From Lacibacter sp. H407 (GTDB lineage: Bacteria; Bacteroidota; Bacteroidia; Chitinophagales; Chitinophagaceae), in NCBI RefSeq assembly GCF_037892605.1, contig NZ_JBBKTU010000001.1, positions 62,001-126,000 of the forward strand: a DNA stretch of 64,000 bases, written 5' to 3'. Positions 37,269-45,105 of the stretch are shown piece after piece; within the stretch, counting starts at the first letter, position 1, and the number at the start of each line of letters is the position of its first letter. The notes beneath the pieces were generated by a model that saw only the letters and a list, made by a program, of their open reading frames with translations, searched no databases and was not told the DNA's origin. The translations under genes were made by a program, and so were the position numbers.

Positions 37269-38546
37269 TTATAAAGATACGTTTGCACCCAATACTTTCA
37301 AGTGCTCATAAAAATCAGGGTATGATTTGTTGATGGCTTCTGCTTCTTCAATCGTTACATCGTCATCTGCTTTTAATGCAGCCACTGCACAAGCCATTGC
37401 AATTCGATGATCGTGGCGTGAATGAACAGTTGCTCCTTTTAATCCGCCACCACCATGAATGATCATCAGATCATCCTGCAACTCAATTGTTACACCCAAC
37501 TTTGCGAATTCCTCCTGCAGCGTTAATGCACGGTTACTTTCTTTATGTGTTAAACGTGTGGTGCCTTCAATCACCGATTTACCTTTGCAATAAGCTGCCA
37601 ATGCAACCAATGGCGGAAACAGATCCGGGCATTCTGTTGCATTGAAATGAAAACCCCTAACCCCTAAAGGGGGATAACCAACTTCTATTTGATCATTGCT
37701 CACAGATAGCTTACATCCGCAATCCATCAACGCTTCCAGTATTTTTTTATCAGCTTGCGTTGAAAACACATCTAATCCTTTCACCACGATGTTTCCGGCT
37801 ATTGCACCTGCAACGAGTAAGAATGCAGCACCACTCCAATCGCCTTCTACAGTATAGTGATGTGTGATGAGTGATGAGTAATGAGTCTCAGCAGCAAAAT
37901 AAAACTCTTCATAGTTTCTGTTCTCCGGCACTTTCAAACCAAACTGTTTCATCACATCGAGTGTAAGATCAATATATGGTTTGCTTTTAAGATTGGTTAC
38001 TGTAATCGCTACATCACTTGCTGCACTTGCTGCATAAGCCAGCAACAATCCCGTTAAAAACTGTGAGCTGAGTGAACCATCAATGGTAATATTTTTCGGC
38101 ACGATTGGTCCCTGAATATTCAATGGTAATTTGCCCTGATTACTTTTTACATGCACATCAAGCTGTGGTAAGATCTCATCAAAGAAATCCATTGGTCTTG
38201 TAGTCAAACTGCCTGTCCCATTTACTGCAAGTTCATGATTGCTTAATGCAACCAATGGAGTAAACATGCGGATGCTCAAACCACTTTCGCCGCAATTGAT
38301 TTCGCTGCTCACCGGTTGTACACCATTACTTTCAATAATAAGTTCGTTTCCATTGTTTGTAACTGTGCCGCCTAAGCGTTGGGTAATATCCATCGCCGCT
38401 TTATCATCGTTACTATGTCCGGGATTTTTAATGATACTCTTTCCTTTCGCCACCAATGCAGCAGCACAGGCACGCTGCATCGAACTTTTTGATGCATTCG
38501 ATTGAATGGTTCCGGTGAGTGTAGATGGTTGTATTGTTACCTTCAC
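37269..38546 (-). CDS. aroA: 3-phosphoshikimate 1-carboxyvinyltransferase (EPSP synthase) with two repeat-derived insertions
   Basis: 425 aa. Family motifs: SKSSMQRACAAALVAKGKS, NCGESGLSIRMFTPLVAL, GSLTTRPMDFFDEILPQL, SSQFLTGLLLAYA, PDLFPPLVALAAYCKGKS, THKESNRALTLQEEFAKLG, HSRHDHRIAMACAVAALKA. Known: makes EPSP from shikimate-3-phosphate and PEP. Odd: two segments that do not look like aroA, THYSSLITHHYT before VEGDWSGAAFLLV and GYPPLGVRGFHF before NATECPDLFPPL, are in-frame translations of short intergenic-type repeats (see repeats). All catalytic regions remain, so I regard the gene as functional. The start lies 1 base from aroB. Confidence 0.95.
   Translation of the reverse strand: MKVTIQPSTLTGTIQSNASKSSMQRACAAALVAKGKSIIKNPGHSNDDKAAMDITQRLGGTVTNNGNELIIESNGVQPVSSEINCGESGLSIRMFTPLVALSNHELAVNGTGSLTTRPMDFFDEILPQLDVHVKSNQGKLPLNIQGPIVPKNITIDGSLSSQFLTGLLLAYAASAASDVAITVTNLKSKPYIDLTLDVMKQFGLKVPENRNYEEFYFAAETHYSSLITHHYTVEGDWSGAAFLLVAGAIAGNIVVKGLDVFSTQADKKILEALMDCGCKLSVSNDQIEVGYPPLGVRGFHFNATECPDLFPPLVALAAYCKGKSVIEGTTRLTHKESNRALTLQEEFAKLGVTIELQDDLMIIHGGGGLKGATVHSRHDHRIAMACAVAALKADDDVTIEEAEAINKSYPDFYEHLKVLGANVSL
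37650..37676. repeat. Palindromic CCCCTAAAGGGG-type element inside aroA
   Basis: The core CCCCTAAAGGGGG (37661-37673), preceded by AACCCCTAA, resembles a dispersed G/C-run element known from general experience in Bacteroidota intergenic regions. In the aroA frame it encodes GYPPLGVRG. It keeps the frame. Confidence 0.6.
37857..37886. repeat. GTGATGAGT-type short repeat inside aroA
   Basis: Degenerate tandem of TGATGAG/TAATGAG words. The 12-base word GATGAGTAATGA also occurs, on the other strand, in the spacer near 265-297. In the aroA frame it encodes THYSSLITHH, which is foreign to the family. Confidence 0.55.
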
Positions 38547-38547
38547 G

Positions 38548-39567
38548 TTATAAACTTTCGATAATGGTTTTCAATTGTGTCAACGGAATATTCTTCACCA
38601 CTCCCTTGCCGATCTTATTCAGCAATACATAACTCATCTCCGCTTTCACTTTCTTTTTATCTTTTTGCAGAATTTCAAATGCCTTTTTCTTGTCAAACTC
38701 AGCATAGGTTGGCAAACCATACTTACTTAATAAGTTCACCACTTTCTCTGTTTGTTTAAATCCTGTGAGTTGTTCAGAAATATGACAGGCATAGGTCATA
38801 CCGATTGAGATGGCTTGTCCATGTGATAACTCATACATGTTTTCAATTGCATGACCCAACGTATGTCCGTAGTTCAACAACTTGCGATCGCCACTTTCAA
38901 ATTCATCGGCCTGCACCACTTTTGTTTTAAGGAGTGCATTGCGTTTAATAAGTGCGGCCATCAGGTTTTTCTTTTTCTGATAGTCAGCCAGTGTATGCGC
39001 TTCCAGTTCTTTGAACATCGCTGTATCTTTAATACATGCATGTTTAATGATCTCAGCAAAACCATTCTCCCATTCGCTTTGCGGTAACGATGAAAGCAAC
39101 GACATATCATGCAATAAAAAAGACGGCTGACGGATAACGCCCACCATATTTTTATACATACCCACATCAATTCCATTCTTACCACCAATACTTGCATCAA
39201 CCAATGCCAATACTGTTGTTGGCACAAAACCGAACTTAATACCACGCATGTACACCGATGCAACATATCCTGTAAGATCGGTGATCACGCCACCTCCAAT
39301 ACCAACTAAAGTTGATTTACGATCTGCACCTAATTCGATCAACTGTTCAACAATCGTATCAACAGTTGCTTGAATTTTAAATTCTTCGCCTGCTTTTAAT
39401 ACAATCGTGTTCCAGTTCTTCAACTTGTTGCCATGTGCTTTGAAAATGTTTTCATCAGTAATGATGACCGTATGAGTTTTGTCAACGATCTTACCCAACT
39501 GTGAAAGCTGTCCTTCAAAGTAGTAATCAACAGAAGCGGTAGAAAATTTATATGTACGCTTTACCAT
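38548..39567 (-). CDS. aroB: 3-dehydroquinate synthase
   Basis: 339 aa. HTVIITDENIFKAHGNKL, GGGVITDLTGYVASVYMRG (NAD-binding), FVPTTVLALVDASIGGKNGI, ENGFAEIIKHACI, and ESGDRKLLNYGHTLGHAIEN (zinc-binding His). Known: cyclises DAHP to 3-dehydroquinate. The length is normal. It overlaps neither neighbour; 1 base to aroA, 129 bases downstream of the DAHP synthase gene with a repeat in the gap. Confidence 0.95.
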   Translation of the reverse strand: MVKRTYKFSTASVDYYFEGQLSQLGKIVDKTHTVIITDENIFKAHGNKLKNWNTIVLKAGEEFKIQATVDTIVEQLIELGADRKSTLVGIGGGVITDLTGYVASVYMRGIKFGFVPTTVLALVDASIGGKNGIDVGMYKNMVGVIRQPSFLLHDMSLLSSLPQSEWENGFAEIIKHACIKDTAMFKELEAHTLADYQKKKNLMAALIKRNALLKTKVVQADEFESGDRKLLNYGHTLGHAIENMYELSHGQAISIGMTYACHISEQLTGFKQTEKVVNLLSKYGLPTYAEFDKKKAFEILQKDKKKVKAEMSYVLLNKIGKGVVKNIPLTQLKTIIESL

Positions 39568-39696: not shown

Positions 39697-40785
39697 TCAC
39701 GAATCAAGCACCTTCTTCTGATGATTAATGCTTTCCATATGCACCGCATCAAAATACTTAGTGATGAAATCTTTGCTCAAACCTTTACGCTCGCCTTCTT
39801 TAAATGCACGTTCCAGAATTTCGTTCCAGCGGTTTGTTTGTAAGATGGTGATGTTGTTATCTTTTTTGTATTGACCAATGTTCTCAGCAATTTTCATACG
39901 CTGACCAAGGATCTGCATCAACTCATCATCAAGCTGGTTAATTTGCTGACGCAATTTTTCCAATGCCTGGTGAAACTCATCTGATGCTACATCTTCTTTA
40001 CGCCAGATGATGCTGCTCAACATTTCTGCCAAACGCTCAGGAGTAACCTGTTGTTTTGCATCGCTCCATGCATTGTCCGGATCAATATGACTTTCGATCA
40101 TCAAACCATCAAAGTCGAGATCGATTGCTTTTTGTGCTGTCTCTTGTAAAATATCTCTGCGACCGCAAATATGAGAAGGATCATTTATGATGATCTGATC
40201 AGGATTACGACGCTTCATTTCAATGGCCAAATGCCACATTGGTGCATTGCGATATTCTGTATTACCGTAAGAAGAAAATCCACGGTGAATTAAACCGATT
40301 TGTTTAATGCCTGCACGAGCCACACGTTCAACTGCACCACTCCACAATTCAAGATCTGGATTGATCGGGTTCTTGATCAACACCGGAATATCAACACCAC
40401 GTAACGCATCAGCAACTTCCTGTACGCTGAAAGGGTTTACGGTTGTGCGTGCACCGATCCACAATACATCCACTTCAAAGTTCAATGCATCTTCCACTTG
40501 CTTGCCCGTTGCAACTTCAACAGTTGTTGGTAAGCCTGTTAATGCTTTTGCTTTTTGCAGCCATGGTAAACCTTTAGCGCCAATCCCTTCAAACATTCCG
40601 GGTTTGGTACGTGGTTTCCAGATACCTGCACGCAACATATTTATTTTTCCTGTTGCTGCCAGGCGCTGTGCGGTTGATACTAATTGATCTTCGGTTTCGG
40701 CGCTGCATGGTCCGCCAATGATCAGTGGCTTCTTGCTCCATGCTTCCTGCACTTTCTCTTTCATGTTTGCTTCTAATGTTTGCAT
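39697..40785 (-). CDS. Bifunctional DAHP synthase (type I) / chorismate mutase
   Basis: 362 aa. About 15-255: KDO8P/DAHP synthase barrel (KPLIIGGPCSAETEDQLVST, MLRAGIWKPRTKPGMFEGIG, LWIGARTTVNPFSVQEVADA, IIINDPSHICGRRDILQETA, GLMIESHIDPDNAWSDAKQQ). About 275-355: AroQ-type chorismate mutase (LEKLRQQINQLDDELMQILG, RMKIAENIGQYKKDNNI). Known: the fused mutase makes the DAHP synthase sensitive to prephenate or chorismate. This supplies both the entry step and the branch step of the pathway. A second in-frame ATG lies 7 codons downstream of the one used. Confidence 0.95.
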   Translation of the reverse strand: MQTLEANMKEKVQEAWSKKPLIIGGPCSAETEDQLVSTAQRLAATGKINMLRAGIWKPRTKPGMFEGIGAKGLPWLQKAKALTGLPTTVEVATGKQVEDALNFEVDVLWIGARTTVNPFSVQEVADALRGVDIPVLIKNPINPDLELWSGAVERVARAGIKQIGLIHRGFSSYGNTEYRNAPMWHLAIEMKRRNPDQIIINDPSHICGRRDILQETAQKAIDLDFDGLMIESHIDPDNAWSDAKQQVTPERLAEMLSSIIWRKEDVASDEFHQALEKLRQQINQLDDELMQILGQRMKIAENIGQYKKDNNITILQTNRWNEILERAFKEGERKGLSKDFITKYFDAVHMESINHQKKVLDS

Positions 40786-41394: not shown

Positions 41395-41856
41395 TTATGA
41401 TTTGTTCTTCTGCATCTGTTTCATCTCTTTAAATCGTGGTTCAGACATTTCAAATTTTACTTCTCCTTTTCCATACACTCCTGTTTCGATCCATCCTTGC
41501 TTCCGATAAAATGTTTCCGCTCTTGTTCCCGGGCTTGTACTCAACCAAACTGTTTCATCTGTTTGATTGAAATACCAGTTCATCATCAGATCATGCAATT
41601 GCTTGCCGATTCCTTTTGCTTCACTGTTGGGGTCAACAAACAAAGCCCAGATATTATGATCCACTAAATCAGCAATTGAAAAACCAACCACCACATCATT
41701 AATTACACAAACCCAACCCTTGCCTCTTCTGGTGATATAATCTTCCACATCTTTATCTGGCACCAATGCTGGATTGCTCAACATGTTTTCTTTTACAGCG
41801 TTACGTACAACCTGTATCTGCGGAATATCTTGTATCGTTGCTTCACGAAAGATCAT
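41395..41856 (-). CDS. GNAT-family N-acetyltransferase
   Basis: 153 aa. FREATIQDIPQIQVVRNAVK, WVCVINDVVVGFSIADLVDH, IWALFVDPNSEAKGIGKQLH (acetyl-CoA loop, with GIGKQL as the Q/RxxGxG/A motif) and TRAETFYRKQGWIETGVYGK. Known fold: transfers acetyl from acetyl-CoA; substrate unknown. It overlaps tyrA by 4 bases (ATGA), indicating co-translation within the aromatic run, though a role there is not established. Confidence 0.85.
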   Translation of the reverse strand: MIFREATIQDIPQIQVVRNAVKENMLSNPALVPDKDVEDYITRRGKGWVCVINDVVVGFSIADLVDHNIWALFVDPNSEAKGIGKQLHDLMMNWYFNQTDETVWLSTSPGTRAETFYRKQGWIETGVYGKGEVKFEMSEPRFKEMKQMQKNKS

Positions 41857-42701
41857 TTGATGATGCGTCTTATTTTGTTTGCGTGTTCAATTAAATTCTG
41901 TAAGTCTGTTCCTTTATCATCCCTAATGCTGTCTCTGAATTTTGTTAACTGTTGAATATGTTCATTCAACACATCCAGCACATTTACTTTATTCTGCAAA
42001 AAGATGGGAACCCACATAGCAGGATTACTTTTTGCCAAACGCACCGTGCTTTCAAAACCTGCACTCGCCATTTCGAAAATAGCATTGTCTTCTTTTTCTT
42101 TTTCCAATACTGTATTTGCTAATGCAAAAGATGTGATGTGTGAAATATGACTCACATACGCCGCATGCAGATCATGTGCTTTAGCTTCCATGCTCAGCAG
42201 GTGCATACCTATTTTTTTATACATGTATTTTGTCCATTCCAATGCATCGAGATCGCTATCGCCTTCGTTGCAAATGATCACCGCTTTATTTTCATAAGCG
42301 CCACGTACTGCAGCAGCGGGACCGCTGTACTCCGTACCCCACATGGGATGCGTTGCAACATAACGTCCACGTTTGGGATGATTTGCTACTGCTTCTGTTA
42401 ATTGCGATTTGGTAGAACCAAGATCAACAACGATCTGCTGATCTACTTTATCAAGAATAGAAGGCAGCAAACCTACCATCAGATCAACGGGGAATGCAAG
42501 TATCACTACATCGCTTTGTGCAATGGCTTCATCTAATGGTAATATTTCATCCACAAGTTCAAGTTCCAAAGCTTTTGCTTCGTGTTCTTTATTGGCATCA
42601 GCACCAATCAATCGTGACGAGATTTTTTTCTCATGCAGCTGAATGGCGAGTGAACCACCAATTAAACCCACTCCAATGATTGCAATTCGTTTACGTTCCA
42701 T
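41853..42701 (-). CDS. tyrA: Prephenate dehydrogenase
   Basis: 282 aa from MERKRIAIIG (ATG at 42701; a longer in-frame start would add a Lys/Ser-rich tail). N-terminal Rossmann: IAIIGVGLIGGSLAIQLHEK; VVDLGSTKSQLTEAV; HPMWGTEYSGPAAAVRGAYE; HDLHAAYVSHISHITSFALA in the helical domain. Known: oxidatively decarboxylates prephenate to 4-hydroxyphenylpyruvate. No ACT domain is visible, so Tyr control may occur at the RNA level (see attenuator) or at DAHP synthase. Confidence 0.93.
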   Translation of the reverse strand: MERKRIAIIGVGLIGGSLAIQLHEKKISSRLIGADANKEHEAKALELELVDEILPLDEAIAQSDVVILAFPVDLMVGLLPSILDKVDQQIVVDLGSTKSQLTEAVANHPKRGRYVATHPMWGTEYSGPAAAVRGAYENKAVIICNEGDSDLDALEWTKYMYKKIGMHLLSMEAKAHDLHAAYVSHISHITSFALANTVLEKEKEDNAIFEMASAGFESTVRLAKSNPAMWVPIFLQNKVNVLDVLNEHIQQLTKFRDSIRDDKGTDLQNLIEHANKIRRIIK

Positions 42702-42720
42702 ACTTTTTGCTTTTGACTTT

Positions 42721-43875
42721 TTACTTCGCACTTATCCTCTCAATCGCTTCTTCAAATCTTGTAACCGGCGCACACAAACTCACTCTTATATATCCATCAC
42801 CTGCATTACCAAAAATGCCCCCCGGTGTTATAAACACATTGCTGTTGTACAACACTTCATCACTCAACTCATAACCTGTTTTGTATTTCGCTGGGGTCTT
42901 TGCCCACACGAACATACCAACCTGGTCTTTTGAATACACACAGTTCAATAGATCCAATAATTCAAATACTTTCTCTCTGCGTTCTCGGTAAATTTTATTT
43001 ACTCCATCGTACCAGTCTTTACCGAGGTTCAATGCAGTTGCTGCTGCCAATTGTAACGGCAGAAACATACCGCTATCCATATTACTTTTGAAACGTAGCA
43101 CTTCATCAATGCGTTCTTTTGCTCCGCTTAACATGCCCACTCTCCATCCTGCCATATTGCTCGATTTGCTGAGAGAGTTTAATTCCAACACACAATCTTT
43201 TGCGCCTTCAATACTTAATAAACTCATCGGGTTTTCGTTCAGGATAAAGCTATATGGATTATCATGAATGATGAGGATGCCTGTTTTCTTTGCGAAAGCA
43301 ACTAACTGCTCAAACAACTTATGTTCTGGCACTTGACCGGTTGGCATCTGCGGATAATTCACAAACATCAACTTCACTTTTGAAAGATCAGCCGCTTCTA
43401 ATGCAGCAAAATCAGGTGCATAATTATTTGCTTCTTTCAAATCATAATCAACACAAACGCCACCTGCTAACTTCACCGCACTTCTGTATGTTGGGTAACC
43501 GGGATTCGGCACCAACACTTCATCTCCTTCGTTCAAATAAGTCATGCAGATATGCATAATACCTTCCTTACTGCCAATGAGCGGAAGAATTTCTGTATCA
43601 GGATTCAACTCAACATTGTACCATTTCTTATACCAATCACTCATGGCCTTACGCAACACAATTGAACCTTTGTACGATTGATAGCCATGTACATTTGGTT
43701 TTACACTTTCTTCCTGCAATGTCTTTACCACATCAGGATGCGGTGGCAGATCAGGACTACCAATGCCAAGGTTGATAATCTGCTTACCTTGTTTGTTCAG
43801 TTCATCAATTTCCCGCAACTTCTGCGAAAAATAATATTCACCAATACCGTCCAATCGTTTTGCTGTCTGTATCAT
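42721..43875 (-). CDS. Class I/II PLP aminotransferase of the aromatic operon
   Basis: 384 aa from MIQTAKRLDGIG (ATG at 43875, 1 base after the pheA stop). Motifs: INLGIGSPDLPPHPDVVKTL, PLIGSKEGIMHICMTYLNEG, VPNPGYPTYRSAVKLAGGVC, MFVNYPQMPTGQVPEHKLF, NSLSKSSNMAGWRVGMLSG with the PLP lysine in SLSKSSNMAG. Known: the family includes LL-diaminopimelate- and aspartate/aromatic aminotransferases. Its place between pheA and tyrA suggests it transaminates phenylpyruvate and hydroxyphenylpyruvate (inference). Confidence 0.88.
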   Translation of the reverse strand: MIQTAKRLDGIGEYYFSQKLREIDELNKQGKQIINLGIGSPDLPPHPDVVKTLQEESVKPNVHGYQSYKGSIVLRKAMSDWYKKWYNVELNPDTEILPLIGSKEGIMHICMTYLNEGDEVLVPNPGYPTYRSAVKLAGGVCVDYDLKEANNYAPDFAALEAADLSKVKLMFVNYPQMPTGQVPEHKLFEQLVAFAKKTGILIIHDNPYSFILNENPMSLLSIEGAKDCVLELNSLSKSSNMAGWRVGMLSGAKERIDEVLRFKSNMDSGMFLPLQLAAATALNLGKDWYDGVNKIYRERREKVFELLDLLNCVYSKDQVGMFVWAKTPAKYKTGYELSDEVLYNSNVFITPGGIFGNAGDGYIRVSLCAPVTRFEEAIERISAK

Positions 43876-43876
43876 A

Positions 43877-44701
43877 TTAAACTGTCTTTCCGTTTTTGTA
43901 AACACCATAGATCTTCAACTCAACAGTTGAAGGTTTGATTGCTTCAATCACTTTATGAAACTGCTCAATTGTTTCAAATTCCATATCTGCATGAAAGCTG
44001 TATTTAAAATCTGTTCCCGGAATCGGAAAACTTTGCAGCTTACTTAAATTAATGCCACCATCTGCAATTTGTCCAAGTACTCTTGCCAAACTTCCTTTTG
44101 AATGATCGGTAACAAAATTCACCGATGCTTTATTCGCATTTTCAATTGAACCGTTTTGTTCACGTTGCAAAATGAGGAACCTCGTATAGTTCTTCTTCAT
44201 TGTTTGAATACCCGGCGCAATCACATGTAAATCGTATAGATCAGCTGCCAGCTTGCTGGCGATGGCTGCAATATGTTTGCTCTTATGCTGATAGATATGT
44301 TTTGCACTCAACGCCGTGTCATCTGTTTCAACCAACTTCCATTTATGCTTATCGAGATAATCGTAGCACTGCTGCAAAGCCATTGTATGCGAATGCACTT
44401 CTTTAATGTCTTCTAGTTTTACTCCCTTGTTTACGATCAGGTTTTGTTTAATGTGGAGGTATACTTCACCTACAATCACCAGGTTACTTTTCTGTAATAG
44501 ATTATAGTTCGGCAAAATGCTGCCGGCAATAGAATTTTCAATCGCCATCACTGCGCCGTCGCTTTCTTTTTTATTGGCACCGATCTTTACCACTTCCCTG
44601 AATGTGGCACAAGGGATCACTTCCACATCCTTTCCAAAGAATTGTCTTGCCGCTTCCTGGTGAAAACTGCCTTCGTAACCTTGTATCGTAACTTTTGCCA
44701 T
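43877..44701 (-). CDS. pheA: Prephenate dehydratase
   Basis: 274 aa. Catalytic domain about 1-180: VTIQGYEGSFHQEAARQFFG, SDGAVMAIENSIAGSILPNY, VHSHTMALQQCYDYLDKHKW, and TRFLILQREQN in place of the TRF motif. ACT regulatory domain about 195-270: KGSLARVLGQIADGGINLSK, LQSFPIPGTDFKYSFHADME (the ESRP-like site is LQSFP here). Known: makes phenylpyruvate; Phe feedback-inhibits through ACT. It is the first structural gene of the aromatic operon, 64 bases after a Phe/Tyr-rich leader ORF, with a terminator-like hairpin between. Confidence 0.94.
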   Translation of the reverse strand: MAKVTIQGYEGSFHQEAARQFFGKDVEVIPCATFREVVKIGANKKESDGAVMAIENSIAGSILPNYNLLQKSNLVIVGEVYLHIKQNLIVNKGVKLEDIKEVHSHTMALQQCYDYLDKHKWKLVETDDTALSAKHIYQHKSKHIAAIASKLAADLYDLHVIAPGIQTMKKNYTRFLILQREQNGSIENANKASVNFVTDHSKGSLARVLGQIADGGINLSKLQSFPIPGTDFKYSFHADMEFETIEQFHKVIEAIKPSTVELKIYGVYKNGKTV

Positions 44702-44713
44702 AGTGCTAAAATG

Positions 44714-44743
44714 AAGAATCCCGACCTTTTGGCCGGGATTCTT
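44714..44743 (-). promoter_or_regulatory. Attenuator hairpin (3:4 stem) of the pheA operon
   Basis: Minus strand AAGAATCCCGGCC (44743-44731), loop AAAA, GGTCGGGATTCTT (44726-44714): a 13-bp continuous stem with one G-U pair, followed by CATTTTAG and, 12 bases after the stem, the pheA ATG. The 5' arm contains TCCCGGC (44738-44732), which can instead pair with GCCGGGA (44796-44790) inside the leader ORF. That gives two mutually exclusive structures. The U-tract is modest (TTCTTCATTTT), so termination strength is uncertain; blocking of pheA translation is an alternative. Confidence 0.8.
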
Positions 44744-44765
44744 TATGTTGATTCGTTTCGTTCGT

Positions 44766-44855
44766 TTAGTTCACTTTCAACAACAGGATTCCCGGCTTCA
44801 TTCTAAAATAAAAGAAGCTAAAATAAAAGAAACGGTATCCTTTGTTGATTGTCAT
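44766..44855 (-). CDS. Phe/Tyr-rich leader peptide of the pheA operon (pheL-like)
   Basis: 29 codons, ATG at 44855-44853, TAA at 44768-44766. It begins MTINKGY, then RFFYFSFFYFR (codons 8-18), and ends MKPGILLLKVN. Nine of codons 9-17 but one are Phe (6) or Tyr (2), the remaining one Ser; a further Tyr is codon 7. A 15-base tandem repeat produces the two FFYF blocks. Known: runs of the regulated amino acid in a short leader ORF ahead of competing hairpins are the hallmark of ribosome-mediated attenuation (E. coli pheL, trpL). Short inverted repeat GCTTC (44818-44814)/GAAGC (44799-44795) could act as the 1:2 stem. Its function is inferred; the pattern is seen directly. Confidence 0.85.
   Translation of the reverse strand: MTINKGYRFFYFSFFYFRMKPGILLLKVN
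44803..44831. repeat. 15-base tandem repeat encoding the FFYF blocks
   Basis: CTAAAATAAAAGAA (plus strand) occurs at 44803-44816 and 44818-44831. On the minus strand it encodes TTC TTT TAT TTT twice, doubling the control codons of the leader ORF. Confidence 0.9.
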
Positions 44856-44860
44856 CGAAT

Positions 44861-44890
44861 CAAAAGTAAAGCAGGGAACGCATAAAACAA
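44861..44890 (-). promoter_or_regulatory. Candidate promoter of the leader and pheA operon
   Basis: Minus strand TTG (44888-44890), exactly 19 bases, TACTTTTG (44861-44868), a perfect TAnnTTTG box. The predicted start of transcription would be within a few bases of the leader ATG at 44855, so the message would be almost leaderless; either that is so or another promoter lies further upstream. Confidence 0.5.
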
Positions 44891-45014: not shown

Positions 45015-45105
45015 ACGGCCGTTAACGATTGCTTGCCATATGAAAATCTTATTCGGATTTCTCTATCCCCGGCAAGCTGGGTATTCACTCTTCACCGAAA
45101 TCCTA
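45000..45105 (-). ncRNA. Candidate structured RNA with pseudoknot topology
   Basis: Two perfect 7-base inverted repeats interlock: GCTTGCC (45031-45037) with GGCAAGC (45071-45077), and GGATTTC (45055-45061) with GAAATCC (45097-45103). The order A, B, A', B' is that of an H-type pseudoknot. The minus-strand reading is chosen because a T-tailed hairpin follows at 44992-45014. It could be a free small RNA or the structured 3' end of the lipoprotein message. I cannot name a family; Bacteroidota motifs such as Flavo-1 would be worth testing. Confidence 0.4.

Follow-up and report, generated by a model that had tools for sequence, protein, structure and literature searches.

A predicted ribosome-mediated Phe/Tyr attenuator upstream of pheA in Lacibacter sp. 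H407 and its relatives

Does the short, aromatic-rich reading frame that precedes pheA in Lacibacter sp. H407 belong to a ribosome-mediated transcription attenuator that senses Phe and Tyr? The original prediction, made from the letters of a 64,000-nucleotide stretch of this genome (hereafter the window, to which coordinates refer), proposed that it does, with mutually exclusive antiterminator and terminator states. On comparison with relatives this central claim held up, as the leader ORF is kept and both the antiterminator (2:3) and the terminator (3:4) covary, and we regard a Phe/Tyr-sensing attenuator ahead of the pheA operon as very probable. Sequence comparison supports the leader frame, the aromatic control codons, the 2:3 and 3:4 pairing and the tie to aromatic genes; ribosome stalling, termination efficiency and read-through are predicted from these features.

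The leader, its operon and their distribution

Rereading the sequence confirmed the minus-strand ORF at 44855–44766, the hairpin at 44743–44714 and the position of pheA. The ORF, a 29-codon leader peptide gene (44766–44855, minus strand; MTINKGYRFFYFSFFYFRMKPGILLLKVN), is recognised from its sequence and from the aromatic leaders kept in relatives, and its RFFYFSFFYFR run does hold eight Phe or Tyr codons among nine consecutive ones (codons 9–17, FFYFSFFYF, 44805–44831). The hairpin (AAGAATCCCGGCC-AAAA-GGTCGGGATTCTT; 44714–44743, minus strand), of 13 bp with an AAAA loop and supported by folding and covariation, ends 12 nt before the pheA ATG (44701). Pfam assigns the genes behind it, all on the minus strand, as prephenate dehydratase (pheA, PF00800; 43877–44701), a class I/II aminotransferase overlapping pheA (42721–43908) and prephenate dehydrogenase (tyrA; 41853–42731), in agreement with the order pheA, aminotransferase, tyrA read at the outset; these are followed by a GNAT protein, a small protein without a Pfam match, a DAHP synthase-chorismate mutase fusion (39697–40785), 3-dehydroquinate synthase (aroB; 38548–39567) and EPSP synthase (aroA; 37269–38546).

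It had been proposed that related genomes should retain the leader and its stems, and they do, with the Phe/Tyr codons of the leader ORF preserved and covariation in both main stems. Of 39 genomes searched, own genome included, 24 gave a PheA hit, and all 21 same-family genomes with pheA carry an aromatic leader, regions 2 and 3 and a hairpin upstream of it; the three pheA loci from other families of the order (L022–L024) have no leader. A covariance model built from the 21 leaders (R1; matches counted at E ≤ 0.001) matched 92 of the 147 genomes of the family and 28 of the 296 of the phylum, exactly once in each case, nine genomes standing in both counts. We fetched 55 of the R1 loci, of which 53 lie directly before pheA and two (L060, L074) before a DAHP synthase-chorismate mutase gene; none of the 55 lies before an unrelated gene. 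R1 gave no match in 55 of the 147 family genomes, five of which (G014, G018, G023, G059, G284) are among those without a pheA hit.

Beyond the family, an aromatic ORF with a terminator-like hairpin stands at 73 of 80 pheA loci from titled genome records, which were collected by protein and not by leader; the positive taxa include Flavobacterium, Hymenobacter, Chitinophaga, Saprospiraceae and Rikenellaceae, and of the seven negative loci two (L210, L216) are preceded by hardly any sequence. The 30 phylum loci with the best PDT scores (L080–L109) gave no leader at threshold, with weak 5-of-9 hits at L098 and L109, and further pheA upstream stretches chosen by family gave a leader in 13 of 39 cases, with one additional weak 5-of-9 hit (L149); the 13 positives comprise all ten stretches of one family (f20; L112–L118, L141–L143) and single genomes of three others (f18, f31, f34). 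Many Bacteroidota families therefore seem to be without the leader.

Some loci carry more than one device. In three Chitinophaga and one relative (L021, L200, L201, L208), pheA is preceded by a tandem pair of Phe/Tyr attenuators, each complete with an aromatic leader and a terminator; in Chitinophaga costaii (L212), the scan detected the first alone. L074 has two DAHP synthase-chorismate mutase genes in succession, which differ from each other; the aromatic attenuator lies between them, before the second.

Control codons and competing pairings

We gathered leaders from a Chitinophagaceae set, that is, the window-family genomes plus L151–L201, L206, L208 and L212, the latter assigned on PheA identity and record annotation, some of which reads only Bacteroidetes or Sphingobacteriales. 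Records whose PheA is 65–78% identical either bear the title Chitinophagaceae or come from genera of that family (Niastella, Filimonas, Flavihumibacter, Sediminibacterium), and on this ground we take the window family to be Chitinophagaceae. The scan that picked the leaders used for the titled-locus, codon, phase, promoter-box, duplex and ranked-pairing counts demanded at least six aromatic codons in nine plus a hairpin, and the minimum of six in the coding frame is therefore by construction. In that frame 95 of the 99 distinct leaders have 7–9 aromatic codons in their best nine, the remaining four having the selection minimum of six, as compared with 0–4 and 1–6 in the other two frames, which are interrupted by a stop codon in 90 and 79 of the 99 leaders, respectively. 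Over nine columns preselected as at least 60% aromatic, mean heterozygosity at codon positions 1, 2 (TTY/TAY) and 3 is 0.14, 0.39 and 0.41, respectively; the control run thus keeps its Phe/Tyr identity under exchange of second and third bases, with Phe and Tyr freely interchanged and Trp present in some leaders. This pattern fits a predicted sensor of Phe-tRNA and Tyr-tRNA charging in which the codons are kept as Phe-or-Tyr, and it argues against both a fixed arrest peptide and a bare U-tract. The leader ORF thus combines what is looked for in a ribosome-mediated attenuator, a conserved frame, aromatic codons and a pheA/tyrA operon behind it, its translation being predicted from sequence.

Downstream of the control codons, the leader appears to be kept as RNA and not as protein. 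The core of region 2, (G/A)CCGGG, lies in phase 2, 1 or 0 in 54, 18 and 11, respectively, of the 83 leaders that have it (it is absent from 16 of 99), and so one RNA encodes KPGMLLLK, SSRVVFAKA or RAGNALLK, depending on the species. Its partner is region 3. As originally described, TCCCGGC of the 5' arm of the hairpin is complementary to GCCGGGA at 44796–44790 inside the leader ORF, and this part of the proposed antiterminator (GCCGGGA/UCCCGGC) stood; its second half, in which UGUUGA (44782–44777) pairs with UCAACA (44751–44746), had been missed. Region 2 (GCCGGGAAUCCUGUUGUUGA; 44777–44796, minus strand), the 5' half of the antiterminator, therefore lies wholly within the leader ORF, and region 3 (UCAACAUAAAGAAUCCCGGC; 44732–44751, minus strand) is common to antiterminator and terminator; both assignments rest on covariation. 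The 188-nt leader folds with z = -4.04 (0/200 shuffles equally stable); this, the rarity of so aromatic a codon run among shuffles of the T-rich core (504 of 200,000) and the retention of the layout in other genomes set it above chance. The U-tract 3' of the window hairpin is weak (CATTTTAG), and a strict terminator scan of the window did not list the hairpin at 44743–44714.

In a first alignment of 21 sequences, the terminator had 15 double-change cells (0/500 shuffles), pooled with a small 1:2 stem that contributed none, and 2:3 was 89.7% paired with zero double changes, because the family alignment is near-invariant and three rows (L013, L017, L019) were off register by one base. A larger alignment (A4) was drawn from 100 chosen loci, namely the 21 loci of the initial search together with 48 of the 55 R1 loci and 31 of the 80 titled loci, and holds 102 rows (99 distinct), including one antisense partial match and one second tandem element. 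Here 2:3 was 91.2% paired, with double changes in all 15 pairs (114 cells vs. 18.2 in shuffles, 0/500; kinship ignored), and 3:4, which lies outside the model, was 93.6% paired (64 double-change cells vs. 16.5 in shuffles, 0/500; kinship ignored). As A4 had been fitted to the 2:3 structure, we repeated the 2:3 test without an alignment and found, for 52 of the 55 distinct cores of region 3, a better pairing with the own leader than the mean over other leaders (best ungapped pairing; kinship ignored). Under a stricter ranking against leaders with another region 3, only 20 of 51 non-CCCGG leaders fell in the top 5%. In a separate comparison with mononucleotide shuffles, 96 of 102 CCCGG leaders stood at no more than 5 of 100. 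Compensatory 2:3 pairs occur in L074 (GAATCGG/CCGATTC), L117 (CGAGACCT/AGGTCTCG), L203 (ACGGTCAGGAT/ATCCTGACCGT) and L223 (AGCGGGGTT/GACCCCGCT). Flavobacterium-type leaders have a weak 2:3, mostly of 6-bp matches, and in four Hymenobacter leaders (L202, L213, L218, L219) 2:3 was not better than in their own shuffles at the 5% level. By this comparison, the predicted terminator and the longer putative antiterminator both covary, the one standing between leader and pheA and the other, exclusive with it, overlapping the leader.

The part of the original prediction that fared worst is the small 1:2 stem, GCTTC/GAAGC, which is present in the sequence and is without covariation support; as a conserved element we rejected it (67.4% paired in A4; 10 double-change cells vs. 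12.0 in shuffles). A longer 1:2 stem is likelier. The minimum-energy fold pairs the 5' codons of the leader (region 1, UCAACAAAGGAUACCG; 44833–44848, minus strand; also assigned by duplex energies) with region 2, and over 99 leaders the 1:2 duplex averages -14.5 kcal/mol vs. -10.3 kcal/mol for dinucleotide shuffles (mean z -1.67; at no more than 5 of 100 shuffles in 45/99). The two strands carry matching motifs (GCAU with AUGC in 24 leaders, GGAU with AUCC in 5, mixed in 3 and 4, with 63/99 unclassifiable), an association with Fisher p = 0.006 over 36 classifiable leaders, one of which, L029, has both motifs and was moved by hand, and with kinship ignored. With 1:2 formed, the control codons sit in its loop, and a ribosome there would mask region 1. 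In equilibrium folding before region 4, 2:3 averaged 0.79 with and 0.73 without masking of the 5' end by a stalled ribosome, which raised 2:3 in 22 of 99 leaders and lowered it in none; 2:3 thus forms with or without masking, and folding alone is therefore no proof of ribosome dependence. The role of the ribosome would lie in kinetics and in the masking of region 2, and that of 1:2 is likewise a predicted one.

Proposed mechanism and alternatives

We propose that a shortage of charged Phe-tRNA or Tyr-tRNA would stall the lead ribosome in FFYFSFFYF, where it would cover region 1. Region 2, left free, would then join region 3 to form an imperfect antiterminator of 20 nt that would block the terminator, and RNA polymerase would continue into pheA, the aminotransferase gene and tyrA, and probably on into the remaining shikimate genes. 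With Phe and Tyr plentiful, the ribosome would translate on across region 2 as far as the stop codon, situated between regions 2 and 3; with region 2 so occupied, the 3:4 terminator would form and transcription would end before pheA. In untranslated RNA, 1:2 and 3:4 would form, likewise terminating.

Could the hairpin instead be a plain terminator serving transcription from upstream, and the Phe/Tyr ORF no more than what a T-rich sequence happens to encode? The hairpin does lie between transcription units, an upstream transcript has a terminator-like site of its own, and the core is T-rich, 504 of 200,000 shuffles of its 27 nt reaching at least 8/9 Phe/Tyr codons; however, the aromatic codons are frame-specific and bear the codon-position signature described above in 99 distinct leaders, all 55 fetched model hits stand at aromatic loci, and region 2 covaries with region 3, which such a terminator would not need. 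We consider this explanation extremely improbable. Marginally less remote, and still very unlikely, is an arrest peptide, whose nascent aromatic chain would sense free Phe/Tyr, as TnaC does Trp, and not uncharged tRNA. Within one group of leaders the similar design and the similar C-terminal residues (KPGMLLLK) would suit such a peptide; against it, the C-terminal half is read in three frames and Phe and Tyr swap within the run, and so no peptide sequence is conserved, just aromatic codon content.

That equilibrium folding yields 2:3 unaided by a ribosome would also suit a translation-independent RNA sensor (a riboswitch, a T-box or a protein-bound U-tract) driving the 2:3/3:4 switch. We give hardly any credence to such a sensor, as conservation in the control run tracks codons, and the window holds no Rfam match, riboswitch or T-box included, at gathering level, with none near the gathering score in this region. 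A further proposal, which would add to attenuation without replacing it, is that the short attenuated transcript is itself functional, as a small leaderless mRNA or a trans-acting RNA. Its predicted leaderless 5' end, its stable 3' hairpin and the precedent of rnTrpL/peTrpL in Sinorhizobium meliloti (PMC7298713; this and the other papers are cited from excerpts) all agree with this; the peptide, however, is not conserved apart from its aromatic content, and we judge such a second function unlikely. The preferred reading thus remains ribosome-mediated attenuation.

Predicted leaderless start and related systems

A search for an E. coli-type promoter 5' of the leader found none, the only promoter-like site lying inside pheA, and the Bacteroidota box was used instead. 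This sigma-A box, TAnnTTTG, occupies -12 to -5 in Flavobacterium psychrophilum in the excerpt of PMC9723704, and the window has it as a -7 box, TACTTTTG, at 44861–44868 (minus strand), with a candidate -33 element, TTG, read in the sequence 19 nt further 5' (44888–44890, minus strand; function putative). By the position of the box, transcription is predicted to start at 44856 (minus strand), one base 5' of the leader ATG, giving a 1-nt 5' UTR. Of 98 Chitinophagaceae-set leaders (L184 was left out of the promoter count, its contig end being too near), 78 have the exact box 3–10 nt 5' of the leader ATG and 20 have none in that interval. The corresponding figures are 1 of 54 for leaders from other groups, 2 of 45 for window ORFs with at least 150 aa and 0 of 665 for ORFs of the fetched loci, these last being mechanical ORFs, many of them operon-internal or not genes. 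In 66 of the 78 box-bearing leaders TTG begins 17–26 nt 5' of the box, a raw count with no chance level. The closeness of box and ATG predicts a nearly leaderless mRNA in Chitinophagaceae, with transcription beginning at the leader ATG or only a few bases away from it. Such short 5' UTRs are rare in the mapped transcriptomes of the phylum compared here, with leaderless transcripts making up 5.5% in F. psychrophilum (PMC9723704, excerpt) and 5' UTRs under 10 nt about 3.7% in Bacteroides thetaiotaomicron (PMC7366714, excerpt).

If this design holds, a start at the leader AUG would let the ribosome load as soon as the 5' end emerges and would so secure tight transcription-translation timing in a phylum where Shine-Dalgarno sequences are little used, and the same layout would serve the His, perhaps also the Trp, attenuators of these genomes. 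The element would then offer a compact natural sensor for testing transcription-translation coupling in a Shine-Dalgarno-poor phylum, and for asking whether leaderless initiation serves timing.

The attenuator of the E. coli trp operon has four regions, exclusive 1:2, 2:3 and 3:4 pairings and control codons in its leader. The window device is like it in its leader control codons and exclusive 2:3 and 3:4 pairings, and would match it in all four regions with the putative 1:2; here, by contrast, the control codons come after region 1 and would occupy the 1:2 loop, and the stop codon falls between regions 2 and 3. The enterobacterial pheL-pheA system has a Phe-rich leader peptide, a competing antiterminator and terminator, and pheA downstream. 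The window shares with it a leader peptide rich in Phe, competing stems and pheA behind, and differs in its mixed Phe/Tyr codons (with Trp in some species), a region 2 wholly inside the ORF, a predicted leaderless start and a whole aromatic gene cluster downstream. The Rfam model of this leader (RF01859, Phe_leader) aligned over its full length at a lax threshold (21.2 bits, E 0.48), below its gathering score of 55; this score is resemblance and not membership, and it does not settle the origin relative to enterobacterial pheL.

The original prediction knew of no described Bacteroidota example, and on this point it is superseded: a structured 5' element that precedes pheA, is conserved among Flavobacteriaceae, F. 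psychrophilum included, and has no Rfam hit is already in print (PMC9723704, excerpt), and the same excerpt speaks of 'strong clues' for leader-peptide attenuation of Flavobacterium amino-acid operons. Compared by description and position only, that element is like ours in standing before pheA, in Bacteroidota and without an Rfam hit. Seven Flavobacterium pheA loci (L220, L221, L222, L225, L226, L229, L230) have an aromatic leader and a terminator, and the leaders at the ten f20 loci (L112–L118, L141–L143) are of this kind too; the 5' UTR is nearly absent in the window family, whereas the seven Flavobacterium leaders are without the box 3–10 nt before the ATG. Our literature search found no description of a Chitinophagaceae attenuator, PMC9723704 being nearest, and the excerpt of PMC4833913 deals with reinitiation at leader genes and holds nothing on pheA. 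Leaderless leader peptides are on record as peTrpL in S. meliloti (PMC7298713, excerpt) and as the leuL, trpL and ilvL leaders of Streptomyces lividans (PMC8079986, excerpt), both from transcript data; as in these, the leader ORF here would open at the 5' end of the transcript, with the difference that those come from other phyla and have starts taken from transcripts, and ours is predicted only.

A Flavobacteriaceae pheA element had thus already been hinted at in print (PMC9723704, excerpt); new here are how widely the device occurs in the phylum, the finding that Rfam does not contain it, its anatomy in detail and, as a prediction, the nearly leaderless build in Chitinophagaceae. Whether these add up to one large family of aromatic attenuators, absent from Rfam, spanning Bacteroidota lineages and nearly leaderless in Chitinophagaceae, we answer with a guarded yes, the odds being slightly in its favour. 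Comparison supports attenuation of aromatic synthesis by Phe/Tyr leaders in several Bacteroidota lineages, where the excerpts of prior papers mention such leaders in passing (PMC9723704, PMC7366714), and the alignment could seed an RNA family and the automatic annotation of pheA operons.

Leaders of similar make precede other amino-acid genes, and the His and Ile/Leu/Val ones in the own genome count in favour of the attenuator reading. Upstream of hisG in the own genome (L145, reverse strand, 556–506) we read TATTTTTG-CGCC-ATG, the leader MILNAHTHHHHTCPNR and a hairpin, with the -7 box 4 nt before the ATG; among 25 hisG loci from relatives and the own genome, 23 have a His-rich leader with a hairpin, and 17 of the 23 have the box 4–10 nt before the ATG. 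Leaders with a Trp run (QWWWHTT and similar) and a hairpin occur at 10 of 30 fetched chorismate-binding-enzyme loci, with the exact box near the ATG in one of the ten (L280, 6 nt). This enzyme family also includes pabB- and menF-type genes; behind the Trp-run leaders of L268, L270, L274 and L278–L284 (e.g. MNKTITNTQWWWHTTLKGL in L274), which are followed by a terminator, the gene is probably trpE. An Ile/Leu/Val-rich leader with a GC-rich terminator was read by eye in the own genome ahead of ilvD (L291, plus strand, about 128–275), and leaders of this type with such a terminator also stand upstream of ilvD in L289, L293, L294, L297 and L298 (e.g. MLKSKLNNLLLANTIVIVVVIIIPALNGGVSCM in L297); these leaders have no close box.

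Finally, the window holds a conserved candidate intergenic RNA at 45101–44992 (minus strand), in which a hairpin, CCC[AGCUUGC]CGGG, is followed by a terminator with three covarying pairs; the hairpin loop can pair with a downstream GCAAGC, suggesting a pseudoknot-like fold. The element with the core ATATGGCAAGCAATCGTTA had no Rfam match near threshold, and this core occurs in 14 of 18 Chitinophagaceae genomes vs. 0 of 131 other genomes of the order, in 1–3 copies each, with three in the own genome.
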